Below are positions 5,846-36,465 of a stretch of DNA of 64,000 nt, one piece after another. A program made the translations under genes and the position numbers. The stretch is from Lachnospiraceae bacterium. Its GTDB lineage: Bacteria > Bacillota > Clostridia > Lachnospirales > Lachnospiraceae. The DNA lies in NCBI GenBank assembly GCA_021770785.1, contig JAETQH010000008.1, positions 1 to 64,000 of the forward strand, given 5' to 3'. Below the pieces are notes generated by a model. It ran no database searches, was not told where the DNA came from, and saw only the letters and a list, made by a program, of their open reading frames with translations. Every line of letters starts with the position of its first letter. Positions within the stretch are counted from its first letter, which is position 1.

Positions 5846-7054
5846 CTATAACCGATTGCTACCGCAACGCTTAACCTCATATTGGTAACTTTCGGTATCT
5901 GCCGTTGTTGTCATTCCTTTATCAGATACCCCCGATTCCGTATTTTGGTAAGGCTCTGTGCCTGCCTTTGCCCGTCCTGTCATATCCGCATTATAGGCAT
6001 ACTGCCCGGCTTCGGTATCTGCCGTTGTTTCTATGTCCTGCAATGCAAGTATGGTATTTCTTCTCGGCGTTGTTCCTGTAAAGGTATTTTCAAATACATA
6101 GGCTATAACCTCCGTTTCTCCGACTGCTGCCACGTCCGCCGAATCAAATAAAATATTTCTGTCCGGCTTTGTGCCTGCAAGGTCGGAATCAAACGTATAC
6201 GCCTGTCCTGCTGCCGTTGCCGTTACTGTTTTGCTTTCCGCACCGCCCACGGTATCCGTATAAGGTTTTGTGCCTGCCCTGTATTCTCCTGTCTGCCCTG
6301 TCGTATAGTCATATCCCTGTGTGTCCGAATCGGTCACAATATCGCTATCCTGCGTGGCAAACACTATATTTCTGTCCGGCTTTGTGCCGGTCCGCACAAA
6401 CTCCGTCATAAATCCTGCTGCCTGTGCGTTTATGCTGATAACGGCATTTGCTACCGCTCCAACCGTATTTCTGTAAGGCTCTGTGCCTGTCTTTAACTGC
6501 CCTGTCATTGGTGTAGAAAATAAAAAATACTCCGTTTGTGGCATTACTACCACGCACATAGAGCATTGATAATACAAACCGTCCAAGTGTGCGGTTAGGC
6601 GTTTGTAAATGTCAACCGTCTTTACAATCTCGTCATAGTCTGCTTCCACCCTTGATTTTGTTGTGTCAAGCACGATACGGAAACGGAACGGCTCGCCGTT
6701 ATAATCAAACCATTCCTCGATTTCGCTTTGCGGGTGGATACCCCCTAAAGCCATTTCGACCGCTGCCTTTGTGCCTAATTTCTGATGTACCCTTACGCTA
6801 TCCCGGATAATTGCCCTTTTCGCTTCTATCGGATAATCGTAGTCGTACCAATCAACGTGCAAATCATAGGCTAATACGTCAAGCCATGTTTCGCTTAACT
6901 CCTCAATATTGGCGTATATGATATTTTTCCTTGTTTCCTCGGCAGTTATATGCAGTTCCTCCGCAATCAACCGGCCCAAGGCAAGCATACTTTCATCTTG
7001 CTTTAATGCAGGCGGAAACGTGGTTAAAAAATCAGCGTCCTTTATTTTATTCAT
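5846..7054 (-). CDS. Tail protein I (P2 gpI family) with C-terminal repeats
   Basis: The first about 200 residues match the P2 gpI baseplate family: LTTFPPALKQDESMLALGRL, LSETWLDVLAYDLHVDWYD and KRAIIRDSVRVHQKLGTKAA. gpI sits at the baseplate edge and links to fibres. The rest is at least six tandem units of roughly 30-40 residues, each with a [TA]GT[KE]P[YD]RN-like core followed by a Thr/Asp-rich strand. The ATG at 7052-7054 overlaps the end of the gpJ gene by 8 bases, the usual coupled J-I arrangement. One parS-like palindrome (6321-6337) lies inside the repeat region. Confidence 0.88.
   Translation of the reverse strand: MNKIKDADFLTTFPPALKQDESMLALGRLIAEELHITAEETRKNIIYANIEELSETWLDVLAYDLHVDWYDYDYPIEAKRAIIRDSVRVHQKLGTKAAVEMALGGIHPQSEIEEWFDYNGEPFRFRIVLDTTKSRVEADYDEIVKTVDIYKRLTAHLDGLYYQCSMCVVVMPQTEYFLFSTPMTGQLKTGTEPYRNTVGAVANAVISINAQAAGFMTEFVRTGTKPDRNIVFATQDSDIVTDSDTQGYDYTTGQTGEYRAGTKPYTDTVGGAESKTVTATAAGQAYTFDSDLAGTKPDRNILFDSADVAAVGETEVIAYVFENTFTGTTPRRNTILALQDIETTADTEAGQYAYNADMTGRAKAGTEPYQNTESGVSDKGMTTTADTESYQYEVKRCGSNRL
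6321..6337. repeat. parS-like palindrome copy 1
   Basis: GTGTCCGAATCGGTCAC, inside the gpI repeat region, where the coding strand reads VTDSDT. Identical copies lie at 14977 and 36431, with near-identical ones at 20327 and 29379. Arms GTG-CCGA and TCGG-CAC pair around a central base. Confidence 0.7.
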
Positions 7055-8192
7055 CTTCCATGCCCCCAAAAGCCACATTGCAGTTATTCACGACCGCAAC
7101 GCTTCCCTTGGCAATCTCCGTAAATGCAGGGGCGGTAATTTCCACCCTTTTTATGCCGGATTCCATAAGCATAGCATTAAAATAGGACGGGTTAATATCC
7201 CGCCCCATTTTAGAGGTCTGCCATAATATATAATTTTCTACCGCCAATTCCACCGCCTGCTTGATTTCCTTGGTGCTTGCTGCCTTATCTGTGGCTATAT
7301 AGTATTTTATGTTTATATCAAATTGTACCGTTGTAGGTGCTGCTACCGTTACTTTGTCCGTCATTGGTCTTATATCGTCCGCACTCAAATACTCCTGTAC
7401 CCTGTCTATCAATTCTTTATCCGGCAGTTCCCCGTTATATAGCATAATTCTTATATCTGCAACGCCCGGCGTTGGACTTTCTGCGGATACGTCACTAATT
7501 CGTGATGATACCGACTTGGCGTGATAGGCATAACTTCCACGAGGTCCGGCGGTTGTCCTTGATTCCTCGCTTTCCCTCATGCGGTTATATAATGCCGTGT
7601 CGCTTTCCTCTTCGCTTCCGCCCGCCGTTTTGGTCGTGTTTGATACCTCTTTGAAATATAAAAATTCATCTGATACCAATTTATTAACCTGTCCGGGCAA
7701 AAATCCATTTCCTGCCGTTCCTGCCTGCGTACATACCGCCGATACCTCGGCGTAATTTTCGCCTGCCTTGAATATCAGATACCCGGTTGTGATAAAATTG
7801 ATATATCCGTCTACCGTTACTTCCAATTCGTCCGTAATAATATAATCTTCCGTCAAAGTGGTTGTAATATAGAATCCAAGCGTTGTACTTGCCGTTGTCG
7901 GCTCTAGCCTGTATGTGTTATGGAATATCTCACTAAGGGAATCCAAATTAGTACCCTCGGCGTATCTTGGTAAATTCTGTTTCGCCGATTCATTTATCCC
8001 TACCCTTTCCTGTACTATCACGCTTGCAAGCCAAAGGATAAATGCCCTTACGGGGTCCGCCGGGTAAAGCGTCCGCCCTGTGATTTCCTCATACCCTGCT
8101 ATGAGTTTATTTACCAACGCTTCCGTGTCGGTATCCACAAACTCAACCTCGGGTAAATTACTCGGTATCTTCCTCGTTTCCGTATTCTCCAT
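7047..8192 (-). CDS. Baseplate protein J (gpJ/gp47 family)
   Basis: This 381-residue protein has the features of baseplate J: an N-terminal LWLASVIVQERVGINESAKQ helix, GTNLDSLSEIF, the conserved AVCTQAGTAGNGFLPGQVN and SRTTAGPRGSYAYHAKSVS segments, and an AAPTTVQFDINIKYYI strand. It forms the wedge ring of contractile tails together with gp25 (8158-8499) and gpI (5846-7054), which flank it. It overlaps both neighbours slightly. Confidence 0.93.
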   Translation of the reverse strand: MENTETRKIPSNLPEVEFVDTDTEALVNKLIAGYEEITGRTLYPADPVRAFILWLASVIVQERVGINESAKQNLPRYAEGTNLDSLSEIFHNTYRLEPTTASTTLGFYITTTLTEDYIITDELEVTVDGYINFITTGYLIFKAGENYAEVSAVCTQAGTAGNGFLPGQVNKLVSDEFLYFKEVSNTTKTAGGSEEESDTALYNRMRESEESRTTAGPRGSYAYHAKSVSSRISDVSAESPTPGVADIRIMLYNGELPDKELIDRVQEYLSADDIRPMTDKVTVAAPTTVQFDINIKYYIATDKAASTKEIKQAVELAVENYILWQTSKMGRDINPSYFNAMLMESGIKRVEITAPAFTEIAKGSVAVVNNCNVAFGGMEDE

Positions 8193-8499
8193 ATACTTCT
8201 ACCTCCACTATCGGCTTTAATACGCCCCTTACATAATCTACGGCAAAATCTATATTTACGATTTCCGCCCTCGGCTCGTATTCCTCGGTCTTATCGTATA
8301 AGTCCGTGGTAATTAAAGCCTTTGCCGTTTCCAACGGTTTATCTATGTAGGCTGCGTTTAATCCTAATGCCCGGTCAAGCGGTATGTCGTACTCTATGGA
8401 CGAATATAAAAACCAAAGATTTTGTATGACTTCCTCGTACACCGTGCCGGGTGCTAAGTTTACCTGTTGATTTTTCGTTGTATCTATCGTGTAACCCAT
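8158..8499 (-). CDS. Baseplate wedge protein, GPW/gp25 family
   Basis: A 113-residue protein with a helical VYEEVIQNLWFLYSSIEYDIPLDRALG segment, then an EPRAEIVNIDFAVDYVRGVLKPIVEVEV strand pair, resembling the gp25-like wedge family (P2 gpW). It lies immediately before gpJ, as in P2 (W-J-I), and overlaps its start by 35 bases. Confidence 0.85.
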   Translation of the reverse strand: MGYTIDTTKNQQVNLAPGTVYEEVIQNLWFLYSSIEYDIPLDRALGLNAAYIDKPLETAKALITTDLYDKTEEYEPRAEIVNIDFAVDYVRGVLKPIVEVEVYGEYGNEEDTE

Positions 8500-8506
8500 A
8501 TCCTGC

Positions 8507-8905
8507 CTACCTTTCTGCGTATTCCTCTAGGGAAATGTTGCTTTTTGCTATCAGCAGGTTTCCTTTATTGTCGAATCTCTCGTACTCTTTTGAGTGGGAA
8601 GTAATGACCCACTTTTTACCGTACTTTTTCCCTCCGATAACCAGCGTAAGGATTTTTCCCTTTTTTCGGTACTTGTCTATTTTGTTCTGCATACTCCGGG
8701 GATTTACCCCCAAAAAAGCAGACAGATAAATAGAAAAACTCGCCGTGTCGTTATCGTTGTACTGAAACTCTAGTAAAGGCTTTTTATTGTGCCGTGTATG
8801 CTTTGCGTAGTTGGTTTTACTGTCTATTTTCAACCCCTCAAAGGTCTGTATCGTATTGGCTGATACCGTAAAGACAATATCCCCAAGTGTTCCAATCTTT
8901 GCCAT
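8507..8905 (-). CDS. Phage tail protein (P2 gpU family)
   Basis: This 132-residue protein starts MAKIGTLGDIVFTVSANTIQ and contains HTRHNKKPLLEFQYNDNDTASF and ALNVNPR-like FLGVNPRSM, matching gpU-type tail proteins. In P2-like tails gpU is involved in tail completion. Its ATG abuts the stop of the gpV-like gene. Confidence 0.82.
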   Translation of the reverse strand: MAKIGTLGDIVFTVSANTIQTFEGLKIDSKTNYAKHTRHNKKPLLEFQYNDNDTASFSIYLSAFLGVNPRSMQNKIDKYRKKGKILTLVIGGKKYGKKWVITSHSKEYERFDNKGNLLIAKSNISLEEYAER

Positions 8906-9159
8906 TAAATACCTCCTAAAATAAAACCGTCGCCCTCTCCGTCCGGCTTAAAGATACATAATACCCATTGCCCGACTTTAGGTATCCACGGCTCTAGTCC
9001 TTTTGGCGGATTCTGTACTATCTTCAAATCTCCCGTTACTATCCCTTGGTCTTGTATCTTTATCCTTGCCGTCATTTTCCCGGCGTTTACGCTGCTTACT
9101 ATGCCTACCCTTACTATGTCCTTTAATTCCTGTATATCGTTATCGTTAAACTGCTGCAA
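8905..9159 (-). CDS. Baseplate spike-region protein (gpV/Gp45-like), 84 aa
   Basis: A short protein with an OB-fold-like pattern, RVGIVSSVNAGKMTARIKIQ, LKIVQNPPKGLEPWIPKVGQ and VLCIFKPDGEGDGFILGGI. This matches the N-terminal OB domain of gpV-type baseplate spikes, but it is much shorter than P2 gpV (about 210 residues), lacking the trimeric beta-helix. It lies directly after the gpD-like gene. Confidence 0.72.
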   Translation of the reverse strand: MQQFNDNDIQELKDIVRVGIVSSVNAGKMTARIKIQDQGIVTGDLKIVQNPPKGLEPWIPKVGQWVLCIFKPDGEGDGFILGGI

Positions 9160-10485
9160 TCAATATCCCTCCAAACAACTGCGTAATTTAATCTGTGTCT
9201 TGTAACCGCCTGTAATGCTGTGTGTTGCCTGTTCTACTATGTATTTGCCGTTAAATTCGCCGTATCCGTAGACCCTAACCGTAATTCCTGCTACATAGTC
9301 CACATCTCCGACTAAGGTAAATTCCGCCGTTGTTTCGCCCTTATTCTTTGCTCTTAGGGATTTTCTCGCTAATTCCTGTGCTTCCGCTACGCTTGATACT
9401 TTCTGCTTTATTTCTAGTTTCTGACCGTCTGAATTGGCGTTCTCGGGCGTGTAGGTGGCTTCAATGGTTTTCTTTGTGTTCGGGTCTGTATAGATAACGT
9501 GACAGGACGAATAGGCGGTATCTGCGGTTTTGGTAGAGAAACTATAACTAAGTATGTTGCCCTTTCCTGCCTTTATCTTTTTGACTTCTTTCTTTTTTTC
9601 GTAATCGGCAGCGTCAAATAATACGATTGTTTTTGATGTAACCTTTAACGATATGCCCGCTTTCTTACACATCTTTTTTAAAAAGGCTATATCCGTCATA
9701 TTTACCTGTTCTTTCCGCTTATAAGTCGGGTTGGAATCAGATAAATACATAAATTTCATACCGTTACGCTTTGCAATCTTTGACCCCATATTTTTTAGGG
9801 TAGTGTTTTCCCAAGTCCTGCTATGCTTCGTCTGCCTTAACTCTGTCTTATAAGGTATGGAAGTAGCCTTTATGCTTAACTTTTGGGGCGGCCCCGTATA
9901 ACTTACTCTGTCAATCTCAAATACCCCGCAATCCAATACTTTATCTTTTCCGTTTGAATATGGGTTTTTCTGAATAACCATAGCGTGAATTTCCGTACCC
10001 TTAAAGGCTCTTTTCTCCGTTGCCTTTGTGGTCTTTTTGGTTGTAACCGTTTCGCCCTCCACATCTGAAGCGTTGACCCAACCGTAAACTTTCGCCCCGT
10101 CCTGTGAGATTAAATGGTAAGGGTGGGCGTTGTTGTTGGCTATGGTGCATTTACATTTACTTGCACCCCTCGTAACTGTCGGCTCTGCTGCCATTGAGGA
10201 TATATAAACCGGTCCTCCCTTAAACTGTACGATATTCCCTACCTTTACTTCCCCTTTTGTTGTGACGGTTTCCGTCTTGGTTTTTGCCGTTTTGTTCGTG
10301 TTTAGCCAATCTTTAATCCATTTTCCCTCTCTATCATCAAGCGATATGCTAATATCGTCCGTTTCGTCCTCTTCCTTGTCCGTGTAGGACAGGGATAACA
10401 AGTATTTTGACAGGTCTTTTGATATATCCCTGCCCTTGAAATAGAGTTTTACTGCCGTCCGCCTTGCTAACGTCTTATCACTCAT
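9160..10485 (-). CDS. Late control D / baseplate hub protein (gpD) with inserted SH3-like module
   Basis: This 441-residue hub protein shows KLYFKGRDISKDLSKYLLS and DDISISLDDREGKWIKDW at the N-terminus and IAFLKKMCKKAGISLKVTSK further on, as in gpD/gp27 proteins that link tail tube and spike. Residues about 77-148 hold an inserted module (VGNIVQFKGGPVYISS through NNAHPYHLISQDGAKVYGWV) that is the same SH3-like unit as in the endolysin at 1-761. The stop is 1 base from the gpV-like start. Confidence 0.88.
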   Translation of the reverse strand: MSDKTLARRTAVKLYFKGRDISKDLSKYLLSLSYTDKEEDETDDISISLDDREGKWIKDWLNTNKTAKTKTETVTTKGEVKVGNIVQFKGGPVYISSMAAEPTVTRGASKCKCTIANNNAHPYHLISQDGAKVYGWVNASDVEGETVTTKKTTKATEKRAFKGTEIHAMVIQKNPYSNGKDKVLDCGVFEIDRVSYTGPPQKLSIKATSIPYKTELRQTKHSRTWENTTLKNMGSKIAKRNGMKFMYLSDSNPTYKRKEQVNMTDIAFLKKMCKKAGISLKVTSKTIVLFDAADYEKKKEVKKIKAGKGNILSYSFSTKTADTAYSSCHVIYTDPNTKKTIEATYTPENANSDGQKLEIKQKVSSVAEAQELARKSLRAKNKGETTAEFTLVGDVDYVAGITVRVYGYGEFNGKYIVEQATHSITGGYKTQIKLRSCLEGY

Positions 10486-10708
10486 TTACCGTTACCCCTC
10501 CTTGCTTCCACGGTGGCAGGGAATCGGATACCTCTAATTCAATTTCCGGCAGAGTCAATACAACCCCTGCCGGAAAAATAAAGGTATCCTTATGCTCTAA
10601 ATTTGCCTTTATCAGAGTATCCATATACATTTCATTACCATAGGCTTTGTAAGCCACTATATCCCATGTATCCCCCGATATTGTCGTATAGGTGTTAAGC
10701 ATAAGCAA
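10478..10708 (-). CDS. Tail protein X (gpX, LysM-like)
   Basis: A 76-residue LysM-like protein: YTTISGDTWDIVAYKAYGNE, TLIKANLEHKDTFIFPAGVV and LTLPEI. In P2-like phages gpX is a small baseplate protein. It overlaps the tape measure stop by 14 bases and the gpD start by 8 bases. Two in-frame starts (ATG at 10706-10708 and the next ATG two codons on) are possible. Confidence 0.87.
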   Translation of the reverse strand: MLMLNTYTTISGDTWDIVAYKAYGNEMYMDTLIKANLEHKDTFIFPAGVVLTLPEIELEVSDSLPPWKQGGVTVNE

Positions 10709-13589: not shown

Positions 13590-13663
13590 TTACCCTCCTT
13601 TCCGGGCATAATAAAAGCACCTACATTTCTGTAAGTGCTTTACACGCCACAATTTCAAATATT

Positions 13664-14461: not shown

Positions 14462-14523
14462 GCTTTTGTACCTCCTTGTGGTAAGATTTACTAACATCAT
14501 ACCACAAGAAAGTACATATTTCA

Positions 14524-15062
14524 TTATTGTTTTTTCTCTTCTTTGACGATTTCGTTATACTCCGCTATCCACGAATTAAATTCCCGAATCGTCCGGCTCA
14601 ACCAAAAATCCAAGCCTGTGTAAGTTGCCCTTGAAAGTAGCAGGCTGTTACGCTTAAACCACTTAACGGGATTTTGTTTTACAATCCCGTGCTTACTAAA
14701 AAATCCCTGCTTTTATTTTTGATTTTGCCAAAGTCACGGATAGGCAGACTTGATATAACGTCACTTCCTACGCCTGCTGCCCTTGCTGCCAAACGGTAGA
14801 GGAATGAGGTTGAAATTTCCGGGGATAATGCAAACTCTCCGACTGCTGCCATTTCATTTTCAATGGCTACAAGGTCGTCGCCTATCAGTTTTTCAAAGTC
14901 AAATACTAACTCTGTGTAAGTCTTATCCTCATATGTGTGAGGCTTCTGAAATTTATGCACATACGCCCCCTGCGGTGTGTCCGAATCGGTCACAACTGCA
15001 ACCTCCGCCTTTGCTTCCTCTGTCTTTTCCTGTGTGTTTTCTGTTTTCTTAATATCTTCCAT
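14524..15062 (-). CDS. Tail assembly chaperone, -1 frameshift product (gpE+E'/G-T type)
   Basis: The 128-codon frame contains T TTT TTA (14697-14703) six codons before its stop. Slipping back one base at this site opens a second frame for 57 more codons, ending at TAA 14524-14526, giving about 179 residues. The extension is basic and aromatic (NPVKWFKRNSLLL, LDFWLSRTIREFNSW). This is the layout of P2 E/E' and lambda G/GT, where a fixed fraction of ribosomes makes a longer tape measure chaperone. The position between tail tube and tape measure is as expected. Confidence 0.85.
14679..15062 (-). CDS. Tail assembly chaperone, unshifted form
   Basis: This 127-residue acidic protein has an unstructured N-terminus (QEKTEEAKAEVAVVTDSD) followed by an HKFQKPHTYEDKTYTELVFDF core typical of the P2-gpE-like tail assembly proteins. 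It coats the tape measure during tail polymerisation. The N-terminal linker contains a parS-like palindrome at 14977-14993. Confidence 0.88.
   Translation of the reverse strand: MEDIKKTENTQEKTEEAKAEVAVVTDSDTPQGAYVHKFQKPHTYEDKTYTELVFDFEKLIGDDLVAIENEMAAVGEFALSPEISTSFLYRLAARAAGVGSDVISSLPIRDFGKIKNKSRDFLVSTGL
14697..14703 (-). other. -1 ribosomal slippery site
   Basis: TTTTTTA on the coding strand, in the frame T-TTT-TTA, fits the X XXY YYZ rule. Frame check: the ATG at 15062 places TTT at 14702-14700 and TTA at 14699-14697. An inverted GGGATTGTAAAA/CAAAATCCC pair just downstream (about 14663-14690) could help pausing. Confidence 0.85.
14977..14993. repeat. parS-like palindrome copy 2
   Basis: GTGTCCGAATCGGTCAC, identical to the copies at 6321 and 36431. 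It lies within the disordered N-terminal linker of the tail chaperone, encoding VTDSDT. Confidence 0.7.
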
Positions 15063-15115
15063 TGTTCAATCCTCCATAATATGATTTTAGGTGGGAAAAG
15101 CACGGTTTCCCGTGC

Positions 15116-20028: not shown

Positions 20029-20412
20029 TTATTCTCCGCCGTTCTCGCTCTGCGTTGCGGTTACTGCGTTGTCTGTGTCTACCAAGAAAATACCCAACTT
20101 TCTAAACGGTGCTTTATAATCCGCTGCCGTAGTTCCTGCGGGTACTTCGATAGAATCACCGAAAAACTGACCTGTAAGGTAGATTACTACCTCTTCGCCC
20201 GCTTCGGCGTTCTCTGCTGCCAAGCCGTAAACATCTGCTACGGTGTCTGACGTAACGGCTTTAATCTTTCCGTCCGTTCCAAGCACAACGGGCATAAGTT
20301 CAATGATTGTTTCGCCCTCTGCCACCGTGCCCGAATCGGTCACAACGGGATAATCCCCGGCGTGTACCATTTTAGGGTTGTAACTTCCTAACAATTCTTT
20401 TCCTGCTGCCAT
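20029..20412 (-). CDS. Head decoration protein (lambda gpD-like)
   Basis: A 127-residue protein matching gpD-type decoration proteins in size and order, with VTDSGTVAEGETIIELMPVV and YGLAAENAEAGEEVVIYLTG. Trimers of this protein stabilise the expanded capsid. A parS-like palindrome (20327-20343) falls at the N-terminal VVTDSGT. Confidence 0.87.
   Translation of the reverse strand: MAAGKELLGSYNPKMVHAGDYPVVTDSGTVAEGETIIELMPVVLGTDGKIKAVTSDTVADVYGLAAENAEAGEEVVIYLTGQFFGDSIEVPAGTTAADYKAPFRKLGIFLVDTDNAVTATQSENGGE
20327..20343. repeat. parS-like palindrome copy 3
   Basis: GTGCCCGAATCGGTCAC, one base different (position 4) from the consensus, at one of the non-pairing positions. It is in the decoration gene, encoding VTDSGT. 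Confidence 0.65.
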
Positions 20413-27530: not shown

Positions 27531-27540
27531 ATCCTTTCTT

Positions 27541-27882: not shown

Positions 27883-27885
27883 CGC

Positions 27886-29355
27886 CTAACTCTGTAAATA
27901 GGTCTGATATTCTTTTGTCTTACCCATTACCCATACAGATAAAGCGTTAGTTAGCCTGCTTTCCCATTCTTTAGGGCAGATATTATTATCTTTCTCCGCC
28001 TGTGTAAGAATGGTTTCCCTCACAACCTTTTGTATTAAGTTATACTGCCCTGTTCCGTACTTCTTTTGTATCCATTCCGTAAAGGATAATCCCTTTTCTT
28101 CCGGCTCGGGTACATACTCGGGGTAATCGCTCATATCCTGCTGCCCCGGTAAAGGGTCGTTATCCTCTTCCTCTGTGCCACCTGCTGCCTGTGGTTCATT
28201 CATACCGCTAAATACTCCGTCTGTTTCCTCTTCGGTGCTTTCCTGCTCTTCCTGTACCTCTTCCGGGGTATCATCATATGTCAAATCTCCGCTTTCAATC
28301 ATCAATTCCACGATTTCCGCAAGGTCGGCATACTCAATTACATAATTCTGCCATTCCTCATTGATAATTGTTAATCCCTCTGCCGAAAACCTGTATATAA
28401 AATGCCTGCCGTCCTCCAAGTTTATTTTTGAGCCTTTAAATGTCTTTTCAAAATGCTTCCTTATCGCTTTTTCTATGCCCGCTGCACCCTTGGCATTAAA
28501 TACCGCCCTGTTGACTTCGCCTTTAATAGCGTCAATGATTGCCTTTTGTGCCTGTTCTACCTGTTCGTCCGTGATTTCTTCTTTTTGTTCCTGTTTCACG
28601 TCCTTAATGTGCATTTCTCCCTTTTCCTCGTACTGCTGATAGGCTTTTGCCTGTTCCTGCTCATTCAGTCGGCTAAGTTCGTGTGCGGTAGAAATGCCGA
28701 TATTGCCCTTTTCCAATTCCTGCTTAAATTCCGGGGATAAGTTGTTGTCTATTGCTTCCATTCGTCCAATCTGTGTAGTGGACGTATTAAGCATTTGTGC
28801 CGCAATTTCACGGATACGCCCCATTCTTACCCGCTCTTCTTTCGGCTTATCCTTGTTTTCCTCCATAAGTGCCTTTTTATACTCTGTAAGCAGTTCTTTT
28901 AGTTCCTTTGCCTGCTGTACTTTTTCCCAATCGGTCAACTCCCTTGCGGTTGAATTTGTGAGGATAAGGCTTAGTTTATCCTTTATGGTGTCGGATTCAT
29001 GCTTGATACGGCACGGTACTTTTCTATACTCTTCCTTTCCCTCCCCTATCAGTTTCAACGCTGCCAATCTCCGGCGGTGTCCTGCGATAACCTCATACTT
29101 GCCGTGTGCTTCCGGCTTAACTACTAAATTCTGCTCTATTCCTCCCGATAACTCGATAGCGTCCGCCAATTCGTTTATGCCCTCTGTTGTGTAGAAATTA
29201 TCCTTACTCGGCATTAAATCCTCTACATCAAGCATTACTACCTCAAAGGGTGTACCCTGCCCCTCTGCCGGTCCTGCTGCTGTCTGTTCTTTTGTCTGTA
29301 CTGCTGCCCCTCTGCTTTTTCCGTTCAATAAATTATTAAGGTCAAATCCTGCCAT
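27886..29355 (-). CDS. parB: ParB/Spo0J-family partition protein
   Basis: The ParB N-terminal domain covers about residues 36-140: LMPSKDNFY, IELSGGIEQNLVVKPE and the CTP-binding arginine motif GHRRRLAA (92-99). An HTH region follows (REIAAQMLNTSTTQIGRMEA, then ISTAHELSRL). The C-terminal 250 residues are acidic, longer than in chromosomal ParB, and end in a possible dimer region. ParB binds parS palindromes and spreads as a CTP clamp. A parS-like palindrome lies 24 bases upstream of its ATG, and its ParA partner is at 30666-31418. Confidence 0.9.
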   Translation of the reverse strand: MAGFDLNNLLNGKSRGAAVQTKEQTAAGPAEGQGTPFEVVMLDVEDLMPSKDNFYTTEGINELADAIELSGGIEQNLVVKPEAHGKYEVIAGHRRRLAALKLIGEGKEEYRKVPCRIKHESDTIKDKLSLILTNSTARELTDWEKVQQAKELKELLTEYKKALMEENKDKPKEERVRMGRIREIAAQMLNTSTTQIGRMEAIDNNLSPEFKQELEKGNIGISTAHELSRLNEQEQAKAYQQYEEKGEMHIKDVKQEQKEEITDEQVEQAQKAIIDAIKGEVNRAVFNAKGAAGIEKAIRKHFEKTFKGSKINLEDGRHFIYRFSAEGLTIINEEWQNYVIEYADLAEIVELMIESGDLTYDDTPEEVQEEQESTEEETDGVFSGMNEPQAAGGTEEEDNDPLPGQQDMSDYPEYVPEPEEKGLSFTEWIQKKYGTGQYNLIQKVVRETILTQAEKDNNICPKEWESRLTNALSVWVMGKTKEYQTYLQS

Positions 29356-29743
29356 TTCTTACGCCCTCCTTTAATTCTGTGACCGAATCGGACACGTTTT
29401 TAATTTTTGATAGTACCGTTTTTATTTCTTCCTCTATTTCGCTTTTCTGCTTCATTATTGCTAATTTGACTTCCTGCCTATGGCTAAGTTCTGCTTTGAG
29501 TTCTGCATTTTCCTGTTTTAGCATTTCAAATTCATATCTTGCCTGCTCTTCGCTTGTTTTAAGCCTGTTGTACTCTTCTAAAGCGATTTCTACTGTCGGA
29601 CCCTTTACCTTAAATTCAATAAACGCCTTGTATTCGTCTAAAGGGATTTCCACCGTTGGAAATGTTTTTATTTGCTGATTCCAACCGCCTAATATTACTG
29701 TATCCTCCTTTGGTGCTTCTATATAATCATTATTATTTTTCAA
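29342..29743 (-). CDS. Hypothetical coiled-coil protein, 133 aa
   Basis: A tandem N-terminal repeat (TVEIPLDEYKAFIEFK and TVEIALEEYNRLKTSE) is followed by a long coiled coil (EQARYEFEMLKQENAELKAE onward). The final segment NVSDSVTELKEG contains a parS-like palindrome at 29379-29395. Family unknown. It overlaps the start of parB by 14 bases, so both are probably co-translated. Confidence 0.72.
   Translation of the reverse strand: MKNNNDYIEAPKEDTVILGGWNQQIKTFPTVEIPLDEYKAFIEFKVKGPTVEIALEEYNRLKTSEEQARYEFEMLKQENAELKAELSHRQEVKLAIMKQKSEIEEEIKTVLSKIKNVSDSVTELKEGVRNGRI
29379..29395. repeat. parS-like palindrome copy 4, beside parB
   Basis: GTGACCGAATCGGACAC on the plus strand. Read on the minus strand it is GTGTCCGATTCGGTCAC, the same as the other copies except the central base. 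It lies 24 bp upstream of the parB start, the position expected for a partition centromere. Confidence 0.75.
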
Positions 29744-29975: not shown

Positions 29976-29978
29976 ATA

Positions 29979-30449: not shown

Positions 30450-30664
30450 TACCTGTACTCCTTTCCTGTTTCCTTATCCCTTAATACAATGCGTTCCACC
30501 AATTCAAACCCTGCAAGGCTGATTATCTGCTTTAGCATTGTAATAAGGCTTGTTACTGCTGCGTTGCGTTCTCTTTCTTCTCTTCTTTCCTCTTTGGTAA
30601 GCGTTCCTATTGCTTCGCCTGCCGTTGGGTCGGGGTATCCCTCTTTATTCCTGTATCCTCCCAT
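30449..30664 (-). CDS. Small hypothetical protein after ParA, 71 aa
   Basis: I chose the ATG at 30662-30664 (MGGYRNKEGYPDPTAGEAIG), preceded by GGAGGTATAGC; the longer frame overlaps parA extensively and is a shadow. The product has EERREERERNAAVTSLITML and FELVERIVLRDKETGKEYR. The GYPDPTAGEAI phrase occurs in many Firmicute phage proteins of unknown role. It starts 2 bases after the parA stop. Confidence 0.78.
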   Translation of the reverse strand: MGGYRNKEGYPDPTAGEAIGTLTKEERREERERNAAVTSLITMLKQIISLAGFELVERIVLRDKETGKEYR

Positions 30665-30665
30665 G

Positions 30666-31418
30666 CTATACCTCCAAATACTCTTTAACAAACGCCTTGT
30701 AATCCCTTGCGGCCCCGGAACGTGGGGAATACTCCATAAGGCTTTCATTGGTAAAAGTAACCTCGTCTGCTTTTTCCGTCCTGCGGATATGAGTTTTAAA
30801 GACCGGGTAACGCTGATTCTGTAACCATTCCTCCCCCTGCCTGCATACATCACGGTTATAGAACATTGTCACAAGGCAACCCCTCAATTTCAGTTTCGGG
30901 TTTAACTGCTTGGCGTTATTTATCTGCTCTTCCAATTCGTCCATACCGTCAAAGGCGTATCCGTCAATCTTAATCGGTATAATAACCTCGTCTGCTGCCA
31001 CAAGTGCATTGATAACGGATATATTTATATCCGGCGGGCAATCAATAATACAATAGTCGTATGCGTCCGCTACCTCTTCCAACTGATTTTTAAGTATTGC
31101 TGCCTGTTCTCTTTCCTCGTCCTTAATAACCATTAAATTAGCAGTCAAAAGGTGCATATTGGCAGGAACGGCATTTAATAAAGGATTCTGCGTTGTCTGT
31201 ATAACCTCCGTAATCCCTGCTTCCCCTGTCAGAATATCCGCAAGGCTTAAATTGTCATAACTCCATACTCCGCAAGCCTTGGATAAGTTGCCCTGCTTGT
31301 CGTTGTCAATGACTAATACCCTTTTACCGTAATCCTTGGCTAAGATATGAGCCATATTTACCGTAGTCGTTGTTTTGGCACAACCGCCTTTCATGTTGAT
31401 AACTGCAATCGTTTTCAT
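30666..31418 (-). CDS. parA: ParA/Soj-family partition ATPase
   Basis: This 250-residue ParA has the deviant Walker A KGGCAKTT (residues 10-17, with Cys instead of the usual Val or Thr), DNDKQGN as the A' box and IIDCPPDI as Walker B. It forms ATP-dependent dimers on nucleoid DNA and is stimulated by ParB. Here parA and parB are separated by four small genes, unlike most par operons, where they are adjacent. Confidence 0.93.
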   Translation of the reverse strand: MKTIAVINMKGGCAKTTTTVNMAHILAKDYGKRVLVIDNDKQGNLSKACGVWSYDNLSLADILTGEAGITEVIQTTQNPLLNAVPANMHLLTANLMVIKDEEREQAAILKNQLEEVADAYDYCIIDCPPDINISVINALVAADEVIIPIKIDGYAFDGMDELEEQINNAKQLNPKLKLRGCLVTMFYNRDVCRQGEEWLQNQRYPVFKTHIRRTEKADEVTFTNESLMEYSPRSGAARDYKAFVKEYLEV

Positions 31419-31678
31419 TCGCTTTTACCTCCTGTTAAAATTTTTTGCACTTCTGAAAAATTCTTTTTCTTAAATCCCCTTAGTATCCCTGCAAATATCG
31501 CCCCTGCCTGTCTGCCTAACTCTTTATTCATAAAAGCAAGGTCGCTTTGCGTGAACATCTTTTTTATATCCGGGTCATTGATAACCTTGGTTGCAAGAAT
31601 CAATTCCGTACCGCATAAGGTTTTAACTCCCTTTTTGAAATACGCCCTATCCTCCTGCGTCATTTCCACTTTTTGCAA
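31415..31678 (-). CDS. Hypothetical protein, 87 aa
   Basis: Short helical protein, QEDRAYFKKGVKTLCGTELI and FMNKELGRQAGAIFAGILRG. Its stop overlaps the parA ATG (ATGA type), suggesting translational coupling. It is of unknown family; it might be a par accessory factor by position only. Confidence 0.68.
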   Translation of the reverse strand: MQKVEMTQEDRAYFKKGVKTLCGTELILATKVINDPDIKKMFTQSDLAFMNKELGRQAGAIFAGILRGFKKKNFSEVQKILTGGKSE

Positions 31679-31967
31679 TCCGTTTTTCCCTCCTTGCCTG
31701 TCTGTATGTTTCCAATATCTTTTCTAATTGGTCTTGTACTGCTGCCGTGTCCTCGTTAAATATCCAAGGGAACAACTCGACCAATTCCATATACATGGTA
31801 TCTATTGCTATGCCGTTTGTGCGGTCAACGACCAACGCACCTACAAACTCATGTAGCAGGCTATACCATTCACGCCTACCAATATCCTTTATTGTGGTTT
31901 TGTCTATGTATATCCGCTTGCCGTATATGTAGCTGTAAAAATCCTCATAAATGCAGATACCGAACAA
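31647..31967 (-). CDS. Hypothetical protein, about 106 aa, start uncertain
   Basis: I favour the TTG at 31965-31967 because CAGGAGGTTATAGA precedes it. The same frame is open further upstream to about 32110 and reads sensibly, so an earlier non-ATG start is possible. The product has YSYIYGKRIYIDKTTIKDIG, LLHEFVGALVVDRTNGIAID and a basic helical tail (ILETYRQARREKRIAKS). Family unknown. Confidence 0.6.
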   Translation of the reverse strand: MFGICIYEDFYSYIYGKRIYIDKTTIKDIGRREWYSLLHEFVGALVVDRTNGIAIDTMYMELVELFPWIFNEDTAAVQDQLEKILETYRQARREKRIAKSGNDAGG

Positions 31968-32223
31968 TCTATAACCTCCTGTACTATTGCAGACTTTATA
32001 CAATACCCAACCTTTGGAAACTCTATAAAGCCTGCAATCACTTTTTCGGGCGGACCTCTTATCATAGAATCCACCGCCTTTCCCGGCATTTGTGATAGGC
32101 GTTGCAATTTTTCACATTAAAAAATTACGAAAAACCTGTTGACCGTCCGTACACTCTCTAGCGTGGTGTACCCGCTGCTATTTTTTCACTCTATCCCTGC
32201 TACGGCTATTGGCTTGCCCTCGT

Positions 32224-32250
32224 CAGAAAACAGGTTGCCGACCTGTTTAA
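32224..32250 (-). terminator. Terminator after the tRNA-like element
   Basis: AAACAGGT and ACCTGTTT form a perfect 8-bp stem with a 5-nt loop. On the minus strand it is followed by TTTTCTG, and it begins 3 bases after the tRNA-like 3' end, so the two look like one small RNA unit. Confidence 0.65.
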
Positions 32251-32314
32251 TGCACCGGGCGGGAATCGAACCCGCTCCGCAAGTGTTTCTTTGCTGCCCC
32301 TTGGCTTCCTGTGC
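32251..32314 (-). ncRNA. tRNA-like element (shortened, degenerate)
   Basis: The minus strand shows a perfect T arm, GCGGG-TTCGATT-CCCGC, followed by CCGGTGC and discriminator A. The 5' strand GCACAGG pairs with CCGGTGC at 6 of 7 positions. Between them are a mini D arm (GCC-AAGG-GGC) and a poor anticodon arm (GCAA/TTGC with an 8-nt loop). It is only 64 nt long, so it is not a normal tRNA. Its first base lies in the stop codon of the gene at 32314-32592. No CCA is encoded. Confidence 0.5.
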
Positions 32315-32592
32315 TAAATTTCAAAATTATTAGTTGCTATTGCAAAATCCTTTAATGCTTCGTGCTTACCGCAAATTTCATAGTATTCAGATACTAAATT
32401 CATTGCTTCGTATATGTGACCTGTCTTTGTAAGTTCTTCTACCAATTTTTCAATTCCACACCATTTATTCCCGTCGCCTTTTTCAAAACATAAATCCTGT
32501 AATTTATGAAATATCTCCGTTTTCCTAGCGTCCAATGCGGAAATTTCTTTATTCCACTCTGTGTATTTTTCTTTTAATTGTGCCTTTGTCAT
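32314..32592 (-). CDS. Hypothetical phage protein, 92 aa
   Basis: First gene behind the operator-controlled promoter at 32634-32662; CGGAGGTAATAAG precedes the ATG. It is a helical protein (QLKEKYTEWNKEISALDARK, IEKLVEELTKTGHIYEAMNL) with scattered Cys residues. Family not recognised. Its stop codon overlaps the tRNA-like element. Confidence 0.72.
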   Translation of the reverse strand: MTKAQLKEKYTEWNKEISALDARKTEIFHKLQDLCFEKGDGNKWCGIEKLVEELTKTGHIYEAMNLVSEYYEICGKHEALKDFAIATNNFEI

Positions 32593-32633
32593 ATCTTATT
32601 ACCTCCGTTTATTTGTTTTCCTTTGATGATTTT

Positions 32634-32662
32634 ATTATATACTTCCGTAAGTATAATTTCAA
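32634..32662 (-). promoter_or_regulatory. Sigma-A promoter of the early operon, operator in spacer
   Basis: TTGAAA (32657-32662), a 17-bp spacer and TATAAT (32634-32639) on the minus strand. The spacer and the adjoining bases form the perfect inverted repeat TATACTT-CCGT-AAGTATA (32638-32655). A protein bound there would block RNA polymerase, so this is very likely a repressed promoter. It leads into the 32592-27541 genes, including parA and parB. Confidence 0.82.
32638..32655. promoter_or_regulatory. Operator O1
   Basis: TATACTTCCGTAAGTATA, 18 bp, perfect 7-bp arms around CCGT. It covers the -35/-10 spacer of the promoter at 32634-32662. Confidence 0.78.
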
Positions 32663-32680
32663 CCCGGCAAATTCAACAAA

Positions 32681-32698
32681 TATACTTCCGTAAGTTTG
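32681..32698. promoter_or_regulatory. Operator O2
   Basis: TATACTTCCGTAAGTTTG, matching O1 on the left arm, centre and first half of the right arm. It lies 43 bp from O1. Confidence 0.68.
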
Positions 32699-32707
32699 TG
32701 CAATGTG

Positions 32708-32725
32708 TATACTTCCGTAAGTTTA
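32708..32725. promoter_or_regulatory. Operator O3
   Basis: TATACTTCCGTAAGTTTA, 27 bp beyond O2. It overlaps the stop of the gene at 32723-33010. Confidence 0.68.
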
Positions 32726-33010
32726 TTTGTTTCTTTCTTCCAACTGCTGCCGTTTTTCTTTCAGATATTCCATATATTCCCCATACGTCATATCCGGCGG
32801 TACTATTTTCTTCTGTATTTCCTGTGCCTGTTGCAACTTCTCCCTTAATACGGCTGCCTTTGATACCCTCTTAGGCTCTTCCTGCTTCGGCGGTGTTTCC
32901 GCCTTTATTCCTAACCGCCTTGCCTGCCTGTTCGGCTTATATTTGTTGTATGTAACCTTATTGCTTTTGGGGAACTGCTGCCCCTTTTTCCGCCTGCTCT
33001 TCTTTGCCAA
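32723..33010 (-). CDS. Hypothetical basic protein, 95 aa
   Basis: I chose TTG at 33008-33010 (MAKKSRRKKGQQFPKSNK) because AAAGGAG precedes it at 8 bases. Lys/Arg-rich N-terminus, then a helical region (VLREKLQQAQEIQKKIVPP) and YGEYMEYLKEKRQQLEERNK. It could bind nucleic acid, judging by charge only. It overlaps the upstream zinc-ribbon gene by 53 bases. Confidence 0.62.
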   Translation of the reverse strand: MAKKSRRKKGQQFPKSNKVTYNKYKPNRQARRLGIKAETPPKQEEPKRVSKAAVLREKLQQAQEIQKKIVPPDMTYGEYMEYLKEKRQQLEERNK

Positions 33011-33224
33011 CGCTACCGCTCCTTTCCAACTCTTCCGCAATTTCCTTTATGCTTTCCATACACTCCTTTATATTGGTGTCCGTTCCTGCTGTAATGCTTA
33101 GAATACCGCTTATCTGCTTTAACCGCTTTATCTGCTTCGGGTCAACTGCTGCCCTCTGTAAGCACTCGGGGCAGACTTCCACGACCTCCAACGCCTTTTT
33201 ACCGCATATATGGCACTTACCCAT
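32958..33224 (-). CDS. Small zinc-ribbon protein, 88 aa
   Basis: N-terminal CHICGKKALEVVEVCPECL gives two CxxC knuckles for a zinc ribbon. A helical segment follows (IKRLKQISGILSITAGTDTN, MESIKEIAEELE). Function unknown; such proteins are common in Firmicute phage early regions. Confidence 0.72.
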   Translation of the reverse strand: MGKCHICGKKALEVVEVCPECLQRAAVDPKQIKRLKQISGILSITAGTDTNIKECMESIKEIAEELERSGSVGKEEQAEKGAAVPQKQ

Positions 33225-33236
33225 ATTACCAACCCC

Positions 33237-33425
33237 TTATATCTGTATTTCTAATCCTGCTGCCACTCCGCACGATATTAAATAACTCATTAGCAGTACA
33301 AAGGCTGCAAAACCTACTGCTATAATAATCAGCACTATTAAGAATTTGATTAAGAACGGCTTTAACCTCTCCCTAACCCAATACTTAAATACTGTTTTAT
33401 AAAATGCTTTCGTTTTCTCTTTCAT
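33237..33425 (-). CDS. Small membrane protein, 62 aa
   Basis: A basic N-terminus (KTKAFYKTVFKYWVRERLK) precedes one long hydrophobic helix (FLIKFLIVLIIIAVGFAAFV) and a short second hydrophobic stretch. Family not known. The start overlaps the methyltransferase C-terminus by 29 bases. Confidence 0.65.
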   Translation of the reverse strand: MKEKTKAFYKTVFKYWVRERLKPFLIKFLIVLIIIAVGFAAFVLLMSYLISCGVAAGLEIQI

Positions 33426-34996
33426 CTGATACCTCCGCTAATGCGTCCAAAATCCCTAAATAGACCCTTTCCGCACAAAATACGCATATACTGTTACCTA
33501 TTGCCTTATAACGTGCCGTATCGGCTATTTCCGTGCCGTCTGCCCCGTATCTCGTCCAATCGTCCGGGTATCCTTGCAGGCGTTCACATTCTATCGGAAT
33601 CAATCGGCGTATGATGTAAACAACCTTTTGCACCGCCTTTTTCAGAATGTCTTTAATACTCTTAGTCTTGCTAGGGGTATTCTCCTTTGCCCTGTGGCTC
33701 TCGGCTACTATGGTTTCCGACCCTCCGCCGTAAGACCCCCCCCGCTGCCCTTAATGTGCCGTTAATTTCCGTTTCACGGTATCCGCCGTGCTGATTCTCT
33801 TCAAAGGCTCTTTTATCCGTTACTACTAAAGGCGTATCGCCCCTTATGGTATTATTCTGTCCTGCTGTCAATGTTCCGCTTGTATCGCTTTCCCTGTATC
33901 CGTGGTGCTGATATGCTTCGTAGAAAACGCTATGTACGTCTGCGGTCGTAAGTGTCGGGCAGGGTCCGCCGACTTCTCCAACTCCTAAACCGTTGCTTGC
34001 TTTATTCCGGGTCACTTCATCACGCAAGGGAATAACGCTTTTTTTCTCTATGAATACCGCTCCCCTGCCACCTGTCATAATGGTAGGTGCTTGACCCTCT
34101 TTAAATCCTAATCCTTTACCCTCTCCGCCTTGATTGTATGTAAATCCTGCTGTCGTCCTTTCTTCGTGCATAATACAAGGTATCTGACCGCCCGCACTTC
34201 CCATATTCTGCAAAAGCGTAGGGGATTTATCGGTAAATGTCCTTACCACGCTATCAGCGTGTGCAAAATCAAGACCTAAAACCTCCCCCCCTCGGCTACT
34301 TTCTGCTCTAAGGCTATCCGTAGGTTGTCCGGCAATTTCCGACCTTTCGCCTTTGCTCTTCGGAGAATACCCAAGCAGGCTTTCGGACTTAAATAATATT
34401 TCTCCGGCACGTTGTCCTCCAAAATCTCCGATAAGGTAGATTCTCTTTCTACGTTGGGGTACTCCCCAAAATTGAGCGTCAAGCACTCTCCAAGCGGTGT
34501 CAACTTCTCCCCCTCTAACCATTCCTGCGGTTGCCCACCTGCCACTTGCAGGCATTGGAATATTGGTTTTTGTGACTTTTTCAAGCACGGCTCTAAAATC
34601 TGCTCCGTTGGCTGATGAAAAAGCACCGGGTACATTCTCCCAAATAATGAAAGTTGGATATTTTCCATTTGTCGCTAACCTCATTTCGTCTATAATTCTT
34701 ATTGCTTCCATAAACAACCCGGACCGGTCGTCCTTTAGTCCTTTTCTTTGCCCTGCTATGCTCAAACCTTGGCACGGACTACCAAAAGTGATTATATCTA
34801 CGGGTTGTATCTCGTCGCCTTTTAACTCTGTCACGCTCCCAACGTGCATTACGTCCGGGAAACGGTATCTTGTAATATCAATGCAACTTTGCTCTATCTC
34901 GGCGGCCCAAATTGGCTTTATTCTGCCTGTAAGTGTTGCTGCATAGCAAAAACCGCCGATACCGTCAAATAGGCTACCTAATGTTAATTCCTGCAA
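33397..34996 (-). pseudogene. DNA cytosine-5 methyltransferase, frameshifted at a G8 tract
   Basis: The first frame (33671-34996) has the C5-methyltransferase motifs SLFDGIGGF (motif I, about residue 8), GSPCQGLS with the catalytic Cys (about 75), IWENVPG (VI) and QRRKRIYLIG (VIII). After a run of eight G (C on the plus strand, 33736-33743) this frame goes out of register and stops at 33671. Removing one G joins it to SYGGGSETIVAES and on to ERLQGYPDDW and YKAIGNSICV (motifs IX-X), ending at 33397 for about 532 residues. It may be phase-variable, truly broken, or an indel error. Confidence 0.88.
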
Positions 34997-35216
34997 TATT
35001 ACCGCCCCTTTCCTTTTGCTTCTTTTCCTCTTCTTCCGTTGTTATCAAACAACGGCTATCCGGCACTTTACCGCCAACTTTCCACCCTGCCCCACCGTCT
35101 AATATGGTTTTGTTTTCTCCGCACTCTGTTTTGTCAACTTTTACCGCCGTAACATTTAAAGGACACTCACAACAAAACATAGGCTTTTTATCCGCAATAA
35201 CCTTAATAATCCTCAT
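34974..35216 (-). CDS. Hypothetical protein, 80 aa
   Basis: I chose the ATG at 35214-35216 (MRIIKVIADKKPMFCCECPL). CCECP and a later CGENKT and SRCLITT give four or five Cys residues, perhaps for a metal site. The C-terminus is charged (EEEEKKQKERG). The family is not recognised, though similar small CCECPL proteins occur in Clostridia phages. It overlaps the methyltransferase start by 23 bases. Confidence 0.66.
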   Translation of the reverse strand: MRIIKVIADKKPMFCCECPLNVTAVKVDKTECGENKTILDGGAGWKVGGKVPDSRCLITTEEEEKKQKERGGNIAGINIR

Positions 35217-35506
35217 TCCTGCCAATCCTCCAATTTCTTAACCCTTGCTTGCAAGTTTGCTATGGTTACTTTCATTTCTTCAATCTGATTAGGCAATACG
35301 TCCGTATTCTCAAACATATAGAGTATTTCTACCGCTCGTACAGGGTCAACGCCTTTTTTAAGTCTTGGCTTTTTGGTCTTTGGGTCTATTTCTGTTAGCC
35401 TGCCACTTTTCAACTTTTTCTTTTTAGCAGGAGTGGCAGCAGGCAACGCCTTTTTCATAAGGCTATAATACGGAATCCCTGCCCCGGCTAATCCGTCAAG
35501 TCGCAC
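35213..35506 (-). CDS. Hypothetical basic protein, 97 aa
   Basis: Lys-rich centre (AKKKKLKSGRLTEIDPKTKK) and a C-terminal coiled coil (EEMKVTIANLQARVKKLEDW). No family recognised. It overlaps neighbours on both sides by a few bases within the early operon. Confidence 0.65.
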   Translation of the reverse strand: MRLDGLAGAGIPYYSLMKKALPAATPAKKKKLKSGRLTEIDPKTKKPRLKKGVDPVRAVEILYMFENTDVLPNQIEEMKVTIANLQARVKKLEDWQE

Positions 35507-35867
35507 TCTGCAACCCTCCCTCTGCCGTTTCTGTGTCTATCTCCTGCCCTGCTGCCGTCTGCTTTTCTTTTTCCTCCTGTATCTTCTCCCAAAGGATAGG
35601 CAGCAGGATTTTAGGGGCAATTAGCATATGTGCCGTTGTAGTGGCATTTACGATACGGTCGCACATCTGTATGTAAATTTCTGCTGCCGTAGCGGTGCTG
35701 ACCCATTCCGGCGTTTCTTTCTTTGCCTGCTTATATATAGGCGTTTTCCTGTATTTCTTAGCCAATTCCTCTATGATTTCCTTTGCACGGTCTGTAAAAT
35801 CTACCGTTCCGTCCTCTGCTACCTCTGCAATTCCCAACAACTCTATAATTAAGTCTTTATCACTCAT
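35496..35867 (-). CDS. Hypothetical protein, 123 aa
   Basis: Helical throughout: DKDLIIELLGIAEVAEDGTV, RAKEIIEELAKKYRKTPIYK, and IYIQMCDRIVNATTTAHMLI. The C-terminus is Glu/Thr/Ala-rich. Function unknown. The ATG overlaps the RecU-like gene stop by 8 bases. Confidence 0.68.
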   Translation of the reverse strand: MSDKDLIIELLGIAEVAEDGTVDFTDRAKEIIEELAKKYRKTPIYKQAKKETPEWVSTATAAEIYIQMCDRIVNATTTAHMLIAPKILLPILWEKIQEEKEKQTAAGQEIDTETAEGGLQSAT

Positions 35868-36465
35868 ATGCTACCTCCGCCATATTCTGTAAAAAGTGTA
35901 CCGCACCGTCAAACCTTACTTTGTATTCCTCTATATCCTCTGCCTTTAGGTACTGCCTACCGTACATCTCTTTCATATCACGCCACACATTCCAAGGGAT
36001 AAAGAAAAAATCATCTTGAATACAGATACATACACCACACAACGCCCCTAATCGGTTATGCTTTTCCAATACGTCCATTTGTGTATCTGTAAGCACATTC
36101 CGGGTTATCCTGTCTTTACTTGTCCGCTTCGCTTCAAAGACAATCGACCGACCTCCGTATAAGGTCCCTTGAAAATCGGGTTGTGCATGGGTACTAAAAC
36201 GTCCTGTAAATTCTCCCGTCCTGTGATTCTTGCTTGTCACACGGAACGGCTCGGGTGTTTTGTCTATCACGGCTATACTGTGCTGCTCGTACATCTTGCA
36301 CCCTGCCAATATTTCACGCTCAAAATGCTGTCCTTGGGCGTTATTTCTCCTGTTTTTGTACTGCTGCCTTAACCGTTCTTCGTCTACCGGGTTTTCCCTT
36401 GCCTGCTGCCACGCCTGCAATTCTTTTTCCGTGTCCGAATCGGTCACAATCCCTTGTGTTTTCAT
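35860..36465 (-). CDS. RecU-like Holliday junction resolvase/PD-(D/E)XK nuclease
   Basis: I chose the ATG at 36463-36465, preceded by AGGAGGTACAAGGGT. The core has RNNAQGQHFEREILAG, then the nuclease signature QPDFQG...SIVFEAKRT (Asp, then Glu-x-Lys), and FFIPWNVWRDM, matching the RecU resolvase family. Such enzymes resolve branched DNA before packaging. The N-terminal linker contains the fifth parS-like palindrome, giving VTDSDT. Confidence 0.82.
   Translation of the reverse strand: MKTQGIVTDSDTEKELQAWQQARENPVDEERLRQQYKNRRNNAQGQHFEREILAGCKMYEQHSIAVIDKTPEPFRVTSKNHRTGEFTGRFSTHAQPDFQGTLYGGRSIVFEAKRTSKDRITRNVLTDTQMDVLEKHNRLGALCGVCICIQDDFFFIPWNVWRDMKEMYGRQYLKAEDIEEYKVRFDGAVHFLQNMAEVAYE
36431..36447. 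repeat. parS-like palindrome copy 5
   Basis: GTGTCCGAATCGGTCAC, identical to copies 1 and 2, within codons 7-12 of the RecU-like gene (VTDSDT). Confidence 0.7.

Follow-up and report, generated by a model that had tools for sequence, protein, structure and literature searches.

The window analysed here comprises 64,000 nucleotides of a Lachnospiraceae bacterium genome (GenBank assembly GCA_021770785.1, contig JAETQH010000008.1, positions 1 to 64,000). It carries a prophage that encodes a ParA- and ParB-type pair and contains five dispersed copies of a 17-bp imperfect palindrome, which an initial annotation had proposed to be an array of parS (centromere) sites. All five copies were found where that annotation had placed them, with the base changes and orientations it had given. 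The sequence GTGTCCGAATCGGTCAC occurs three times: at 6321..6337 (site 1), inside a baseplate gpI-like gene (5846..7078, minus strand; Pfam Tail_P2_I, E 3.9e-23, over the cut-off); at 14977..14993 (site 2), 69 nt into a tail assembly chaperone gene (14679..15062, minus strand; Pfam Phage_TAC_7, E 0.00017, below the cut-off); and at 36431..36447 (site 5), 48 nt into a RecU-like gene as listed with a TTG start (35860..36495, minus strand; Pfam RecU, E 6.6e-17, over the cut-off). Site 3, GTGCCCGAATCGGTCAC, lies at 20327..20343, 69 nt into a head decoration gene (20029..20412, minus strand; Pfam HDPD, E 0.00094, below the cut-off). Site 4, GTGACCGAATCGGACAC at 29379..29395, is the same imperfect palindrome in the opposite orientation and with an altered centre. 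It falls at the 3' end of a small coiled-coil open reading frame (ORF) between parA and parB (29342..29743, minus strand; sub-threshold coiled-coil hits only), 23 bp upstream of the parB ATG rather than the 24 bp first reported. Four of the five sites are thus within approximately 75 nt of a gene start, three of them inside the gene and site 4 upstream.

Each site consists of the arms GTGACCGA and GTGTCCGA (GTGCCCGA at 20327) flanking a central A or T, and the only unpaired arm positions in all five copies are 4 and 14, that is, one broken pair per palindrome. When the window was searched with the pattern GTGNCCGANTCGGNCAC, allowing up to two mismatches, five matches were obtained, all of them exact, compared with 0.06 expected from shuffled sequences, and none of 100 shuffles reached five. 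Neighbouring sites are 5.3 to 9.1 kb apart, and the five together span 30 kb.

The parB gene (27886..29355, minus strand) encodes 489 amino acids with a Pfam ParB_N domain (E 1.8e-7, over the cut-off) and resembles Noc and Spo0J by sequence. A structure model of the protein, with a mean predicted local distance difference test (pLDDT) score of 62 and residues 41-250 in blocks of 65-91, found its best Foldseek matches in Noc, ParB and Spo0J, and KorB ranked below Noc and ParB. The protein contains the box G-H-R-R-R-L-A, of the G-x-R-R-x-x-A class, and a predicted helix-turn-helix (HTH) region; the box recurs in every one of the 34 ParB ORFs compared, which had been selected partly for having it. 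The product of parA (30666..31418, minus strand; 250 amino acids; Pfam AAA_31, E 2.2e-49) has the deviant Walker A motif KGGCAKTT. With a deviant-Walker ParA, a ParB_N fold bearing a cytidine triphosphate (CTP)-binding box and an HTH, and a conserved palindrome close to parB, the locus is a ParABS system as judged from its sequence. A replication-initiator-like gene (38209..39078, minus strand; Pfam REP_ORF2-G2P, phrog_3584) is a frequent companion of parAB and the site, and its product may serve lytic replication.

Conservation of the sites within codons

Between about 771 and 42.5 kb, the window can be aligned piecewise with the related prophage sequences G007/G036, G033 and G034; nucleotide identity is roughly 70-91%. 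Codons were compared in the four genes with in-frame sites, using four to eight relatives for each gene; these relatives are not independent of one another, and no P value is given. Of 118 site codons, 114 retain the residue, and in all but one of these (113 of 114) the codon itself matches that of the window; the corresponding proportion elsewhere in the same four genes is 2248 of 3290 (0.68). Five-codon windows matching the conservation of the site are rare: 8 of 397 in the gpI gene (G006 unaligned) and 1 of 114, 0 of 113 and 1 of 190 in the other genes. Furthermore, the third base of the last codon of the motif, which lies outside the 17-mer, varies (ACA or ACG) in all four genes. Individually, site 1 is identical in G007, G033 and G034, and the alignment shows no site in the gpI frame of G006, in which a one-mismatch copy lies just beyond, at 44363. 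Site 2 is identical in all five aligned relatives, site 3 in six of seven (G006 has one change), and site 5 in seven of eight (L160 has one change). The copy in the decoration gene occurs at the same place in a Tissierella phage, the decoration protein of which is 44% identical. The sites therefore persist at synonymous positions in related phages, a check that the initial annotation had called for.

That annotation had also remarked that all copies share one reading frame and had preferred selection on DNA to a protein motif. Within the window the frame is indeed shared (VTDSDT three times, VTDSGT and VSDSVT), and it is this regularity that would favour an origin of the repeats as a by-product of a common acidic peptide. 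Across the family, the frame is a preference and not a rule. Among 77 distinct copies assigned by the frame of the longest covering ORF, a heuristic, 50 are in that frame, 17 and 6 are in the other two, and four have no covering ORF of 80 codons. These copies were taken from chosen loci with the slightly wider pattern GTG-N-CC-R-A-N-T-Y-GG-N-CAC, the specified letters of which are fixed by construction; at position 4, with both strands counted, they have T, A or C, never G. The codons of the sites are fixed, whereas synonymous positions elsewhere vary, and one copy, described below (L007), spans the stop codon of a parA gene. The fixed codons, the mixed frames and this stop-codon-spanning copy led us to reject the shared peptide, the likelihood of which we regard as negligible, and they show that selection acts at the level of DNA.

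Recurrence of the palindrome with parA and parB

A search that starts from ParB is independent of the site and is thus a fair test of the association. When the window ParB was compared against IMG/VR, 14 loci were recovered; 13 contain the exact site, and in 10 it lies within 100 bp upstream of parB. At L140 the copy within this distance has one mismatch, and at L135 and L141 the exact copy is 632 bp upstream. For GTDB, six closer ParBs were aligned because an alignment of 18 ParBs was too diverse, a choice that favours closer relatives. At least 15 loci were obtained; among the 15 listed, the exact site is present in 10 and lies no more than 100 bp upstream of parB in seven, and L167 has a two-mismatch copy near parB together with an exact copy in the decoration gene. 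Exact copies were also present in two of five phage records with weak ParB matches; among such records, L189 has four copies and L190 one copy of a variant class, and L191 has none. Overall, the exact site is found in 25 of 34 loci among the matches listed, compared with 0.0013 expected from base composition; the 34 are not all independent, since L139 and L161 are the same sequence and L165, L166 and L168 come from one strain. The site thus recurs near parB genes whose identity to the window parB is about 31-47%, in phages that may share little else.

Searching from the site, the exact pattern was found in at least 120 IMG/VR stretches, and 27 of the 120 listed have relatives of ParA or ParB. 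At loci with a readable parB, among the site matches listed, most upstream copies begin 32 to 56 bp before the parB start (242 bp in L083). In a few loci the copy is located within parB itself, 33 to 57 bp into the gene; L076 and L112 have exact copies there, whereas those of L026, L105 and L120 have one or two mismatches. All of 32 viral records match with at most one mismatch, 24 of them having been found by the site itself, and the reversed control matches none.

Which proteins accompany the site was assessed in 16 loci of 3.5 to 35 kb, 14 with copies of the window class or of a CCAA class and two (L163 and L169) without. Of 38 window proteins, only ParA and ParB have relatives in every one of these loci, and in L016, L112 and L120 they are the sole window relatives found. 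Conversely, no copy with one mismatch or fewer was found in any of four phages that have a related virion module and no ParA or ParB at 1e-3 (Lagaffe, 45 of 54.7 kb of Toutatis, EalM-137 and Shimadzu).

The host assembly (G000; 4.99 Mb, 246 contigs) contains six exact copies, five in this prophage and one on contig C72. The latter belongs to a second prophage (L007, L186), where it spans the stop codon of parA and ends 19 bp short of the parB start; the aligned parts of this prophage's ParA and ParB are 51% and 40% identical to the window proteins. All six exact copies in the genome thus fall in two parAB prophages. The C72 contig also bears a serine recombinase domain and a tyrosine integrase domain. 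When up to two mismatches are allowed, the whole assembly gives 11 matches and the reversed control 9, so inexact matches are background and only exact copies are informative host-wide. One-mismatch copies sit on contigs C201 and C202; the one on C201, in a tail sheath gene at a C-P-N-W-S-H stretch, looks like a coincidence. In seven host genomes of about 36.6 Mb in total, a set without the genome of L164, all 23 exact copies are on contigs carrying a ParB locus, and the reversed pattern does not occur. Five exact copies each were found in G033 (Lachnospiraceae B63), G034 (Roseburia sp. 1XD42-69) and G036 (D16-51), where the gaps of 5.3 to 9.8 kb resemble those of the window; G035 has three, and G038 and G039 have one each. 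An array of five is likewise present in G007, which is the same prophage as that of G036. Many copies across the host chromosome would have spoken against parS; for exact copies such a spread is ruled out in the host's own assembly and in the seven genomes.

Taken together, the recurrence near parB and the ParB-first association strongly support the parS interpretation, with binding itself predicted, and we consider it very probable from the sequence evidence that the five palindromes are the ParB sites of the prophage's own ParABS system. Several observations weigh against it. Nine of the 34 ParB-first loci lack an exact copy: L142, which has no copy in a 4.3-kb fragment (ParB 67% identical); L162, which has a one-mismatch site; L163 (Sporomusa, 9949-9965), in which the parB-proximal position is occupied by the changed yet symmetric GTGTTCAATTTGAACAC, a substitution that itself speaks for the interpretation; L169, L171 and L172, with ParBs of 32-36% identity; and the other three of the five phage records with weak matches. 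In the site-first search, 93 of the 120 listed stretches show no ParA or ParB; these include chance matches and stretches possibly not reaching the par genes. An array is not universal, since Paenibacillus alvei DSM 29 has three exact copies, one per parB. The base immediately 5' of the palindrome is almost invariant, being T in every row except one; conservation thus has a sharp edge on one side only, and this base may belong to the site. The recognition helix is not clearly different between ParBs with CCGA and those with TCAA sites, and its covariation with the site, which was examined, was not convincing. Finally, the consensus ParA-binding motif (PMC12704722) is missing from the window ParB and from all 34 ORFs compared; its absence is not decisive, because ParBs on mobile elements, including the group of P1 ParB, are described as almost always lacking it (PMC12704722).

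Prophage integration and the role of the array

The right end of the prophage lies at 42500..42551, as homology to three relatives stops at about 42551 and a different host sequence follows; by analogy with G033, G034 and G036, a copy of a 16-bp target duplication is expected at 42552..42567. Neither the left junction nor the left duplication copy was found in the assembly, a relative of the G034 transposase was not found there at 1e-20, and neither integrase family (PF00589, PF07508) was found on contig C42. The division of the assembly into 246 contigs means that the missing junction and transposase say little. In G033, G034 and G036 the prophages are flanked by 16 identical bases, the neighbouring host genes differ in each (by eye), and the other prophage end adjoins a transposase ORF (HTH_38 and rve, the latter below the cut-off), which in G034 is 55% identical to the IS30-family integrase of phage Lagaffe. 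The three relatives are thus shown to be integrated, and integration of the window prophage is seen at its right end only. A phage-plasmid would be an extrachromosomal, non-integrated prophage; here the three relatives are integrated and the right end of the window prophage joins host genes, and an additional episomal phase may exist besides integration. Among the 20 of 32 site-bearing viral records that were searched, 7 have PF00589 and 11 have PF07508 over the cut-off, which gives 17 records with at least one of the two. Neither family occurs in G002, G007 or G016, and the prophage of G007 has its transposase in the host contig G036. Given the transposase and integrases of the relatives, ParABS is added to integration and does not replace it.

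Other features were noted in and around these prophages. The Lagaffe-like Lachnospiraceae phages L181, L176 and L180 have an IS30-type transposase, are inserted next to different host genes and show 16-bp target duplications. The window also contains a diversity-generating retroelement, identified by eye (1488-2564, 2930-3343, 3424-4467, 40750-41784), with a reverse transcriptase, an ORF resembling Avd and two putative variable proteins, of which the second lies about 37 kb away; in relatives, the genes of these two proteins cross-match over short stretches. An ORF at 54545-55852 resembles an IS110-type transposase (by eye), and a low-GC island (0.26-0.28) at 56004-59947, with two radical SAM-like ORFs and an ABC transporter-like ORF (by eye), is possibly a peptide-modification cluster.

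Again judging from sequence, these are likely to be ParB sites whose function is of the partition type. If this ParB behaves as known ParB proteins do, its dimers would use each 17-bp site to load as CTP-dependent clamps and would then slide onto neighbouring DNA, thereby presenting the genome of the phage to the nucleoid-bound ParA ATPase; with a spacing of 5.3 to 9.1 kb, no more than a few kilobases would separate most of the array region from a loading point. The system would most likely act on extrachromosomal phage DNA, and perhaps on this alone, after infection, after excision or during replication, and extrachromosomal copies would thereby be kept or positioned. Site 4, adjacent to parB, may also serve autoregulation. 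We infer ParB binding, clamp loading, coupling to ParA and the stage of action from such analogies. As for the main role, we put segregation of extrachromosomal copies first, at about even odds; the integration of the relatives speaks against partition being needed in the lysogen. More tentatively, and with somewhat less than even confidence, we suggest that a widespread class of chromosomally integrating phages of Firmicutes may use a full ParABS system with a codon-embedded, genome-wide parS array for a task other than plasmid inheritance, for example with ParB clamps that coat the integrated or replicating phage genome and compact, silence, mark or position it as a single unit.

The sites might be ParB sites that organise phage DNA only in lytic replication, in positioning, replication or packaging, with no stable plasmid state. 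The serine or tyrosine integrases in 17 of the 20 records, and the IS30-type transposase and 16-bp duplications in three hosts, are consistent with such a role, and the actin-like AlpAC of the integrated prophage CGP3 is a described precedent (PMC4446434). Since the ParABS of cluster A mycobacteriophages, by contrast, is reported to serve the extrachromosomal lysogen (PMC7157519), we consider a restriction to the lytic cycle rather doubtful. Alternatively, ParB at the dispersed sites could mainly silence the integrated prophage by spreading, with ParA as a partner or bystander. KorB of RK2 and the stoperators of phage L5 provide models for such silencing, which would explain use in an integrated prophage and would agree with the missing standard ParA-binding motif, with the Foldseek matches to KorB structures and with the closeness of four of the five sites to gene starts. 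The sites nevertheless sit inside genes, with no sign of promoters for them in an analysis that included no promoter scan, a deviant-Walker ParA lies beside ParB in all 16 loci compared, and several relatives have a single exact copy, which together make silencing as the main role improbable.

Another parAB-linked phage protein could also bind the sites, in particular the Rep-like protein, given that a REP_ORF2-G2P-like protein is encoded beside parAB in L007, the Paenibacillus loci, Tissierella and Cormatin. L016, L112 and L120, however, have parA, parB and the site and no Rep relative at 1e-6 in stretches of 12-14 kb. Toutatis, for its part, encodes a Rep relative (25%) and lacks ParB, and the 45 of 54.7 kb covered in this phage contain no copy. 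Because a copy also sits close to the parB start, we give binding by such a protein very little credence.

Relation to known partition systems

The centromere sites of phage N15 are dispersed over its genome. The comparison with N15 made in the initial annotation is fair, as both have several palindromic sites on one phage genome, and with several dispersed sites of predicted ParB-site identity the array has the form of an N15-like distributed centromere. The N15 SopAB system is described as a ParA/ParB-type pair with four palindromic sites, IR1-IR4, on one phage genome (PMC7205306). N15 differs in being a linear plasmid prophage, whereas the relatives of the window phage are integrated, and the window sites are 17 bp long, of another sequence and mostly within codons; the likeness is one of description. 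Cluster A mycobacteriophages such as RedRock resemble the window phage in having a phage-borne ParABS with more than one parS locus, but there, as reported, parABS replaces the integration cassette and the RedRock parS consists of clusters of 8-bp direct repeats (PMC7157519). For Lacachita, the presence of ParB and the lack of an integrase have been taken to indicate a plasmid prophage (PMC10286716). In the window group, parABS is found alongside integrases or a transposase, and each site is a single palindrome. The surprising part is therefore that ParABS and integration, alternatives in cluster A mycobacteriophages, occur within one phage lineage, and what a partition system does for an integrating phage becomes testable.

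Chromosomal ParB/Spo0J and Noc share with the window ParB the N-terminal fold, the G-x-R-R-x-x-A box, the HTH region and single palindromic sites; the window ParB differs in its long, variable C-terminus, and the chromosomal parS consensus given as TGTTTCACGTGAAACA (PMC10197239) differs from the window site. Faecalibacterium phage Lagaffe, described as a myovirus of about 48 kb with a diversity-generating retroelement, an IS30-family transposase as integrase and flanking direct repeats, is the published precedent for IS30-type integration (PMC5883640), but it has no ParA or ParB relative at 1e-3 and no site with one mismatch or fewer. In Flavonifractor phage Cormatin, ParA is 42% and ParB 31% identical to the respective window protein; this phage also encodes a Rep-like protein and has four palindromes of the same class, one with the core CCGA. 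Cormatin differs in that the other three palindromes have CCAA, no virion protein of the window was matched at 1e-6, and no integrase is annotated (integrase models were not searched). Cormatin appears among induced prophages with chromosomal coordinates (PMC10197239) and is the best experimental entry point.

One palindrome class is thus common to phages and prophages of Lachnospiraceae, Paenibacillus, Tissierella, Clostridium and Flavonifractor, and it offers a sequence handle for finding such phages and predicting their ParB sites. A recent survey reports many uncharacterised ParB-like proteins on plasmids and prophages (PMC12704722), and candidate target sites are supplied here for one group of them. 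In the literature, no description of these sites was found by title or start of abstract, and 11-base site cores searched in full texts matched no phage or ParB titles, with preprints and most subscription journals outside this coverage. A ParABS system with several palindromic sites on a phage is already known from N15; as far as our searches can tell, the new elements are this class of parS, the placement of its sites within codons of genes for virion proteins and recombination, and the fact that integrating phages have it.

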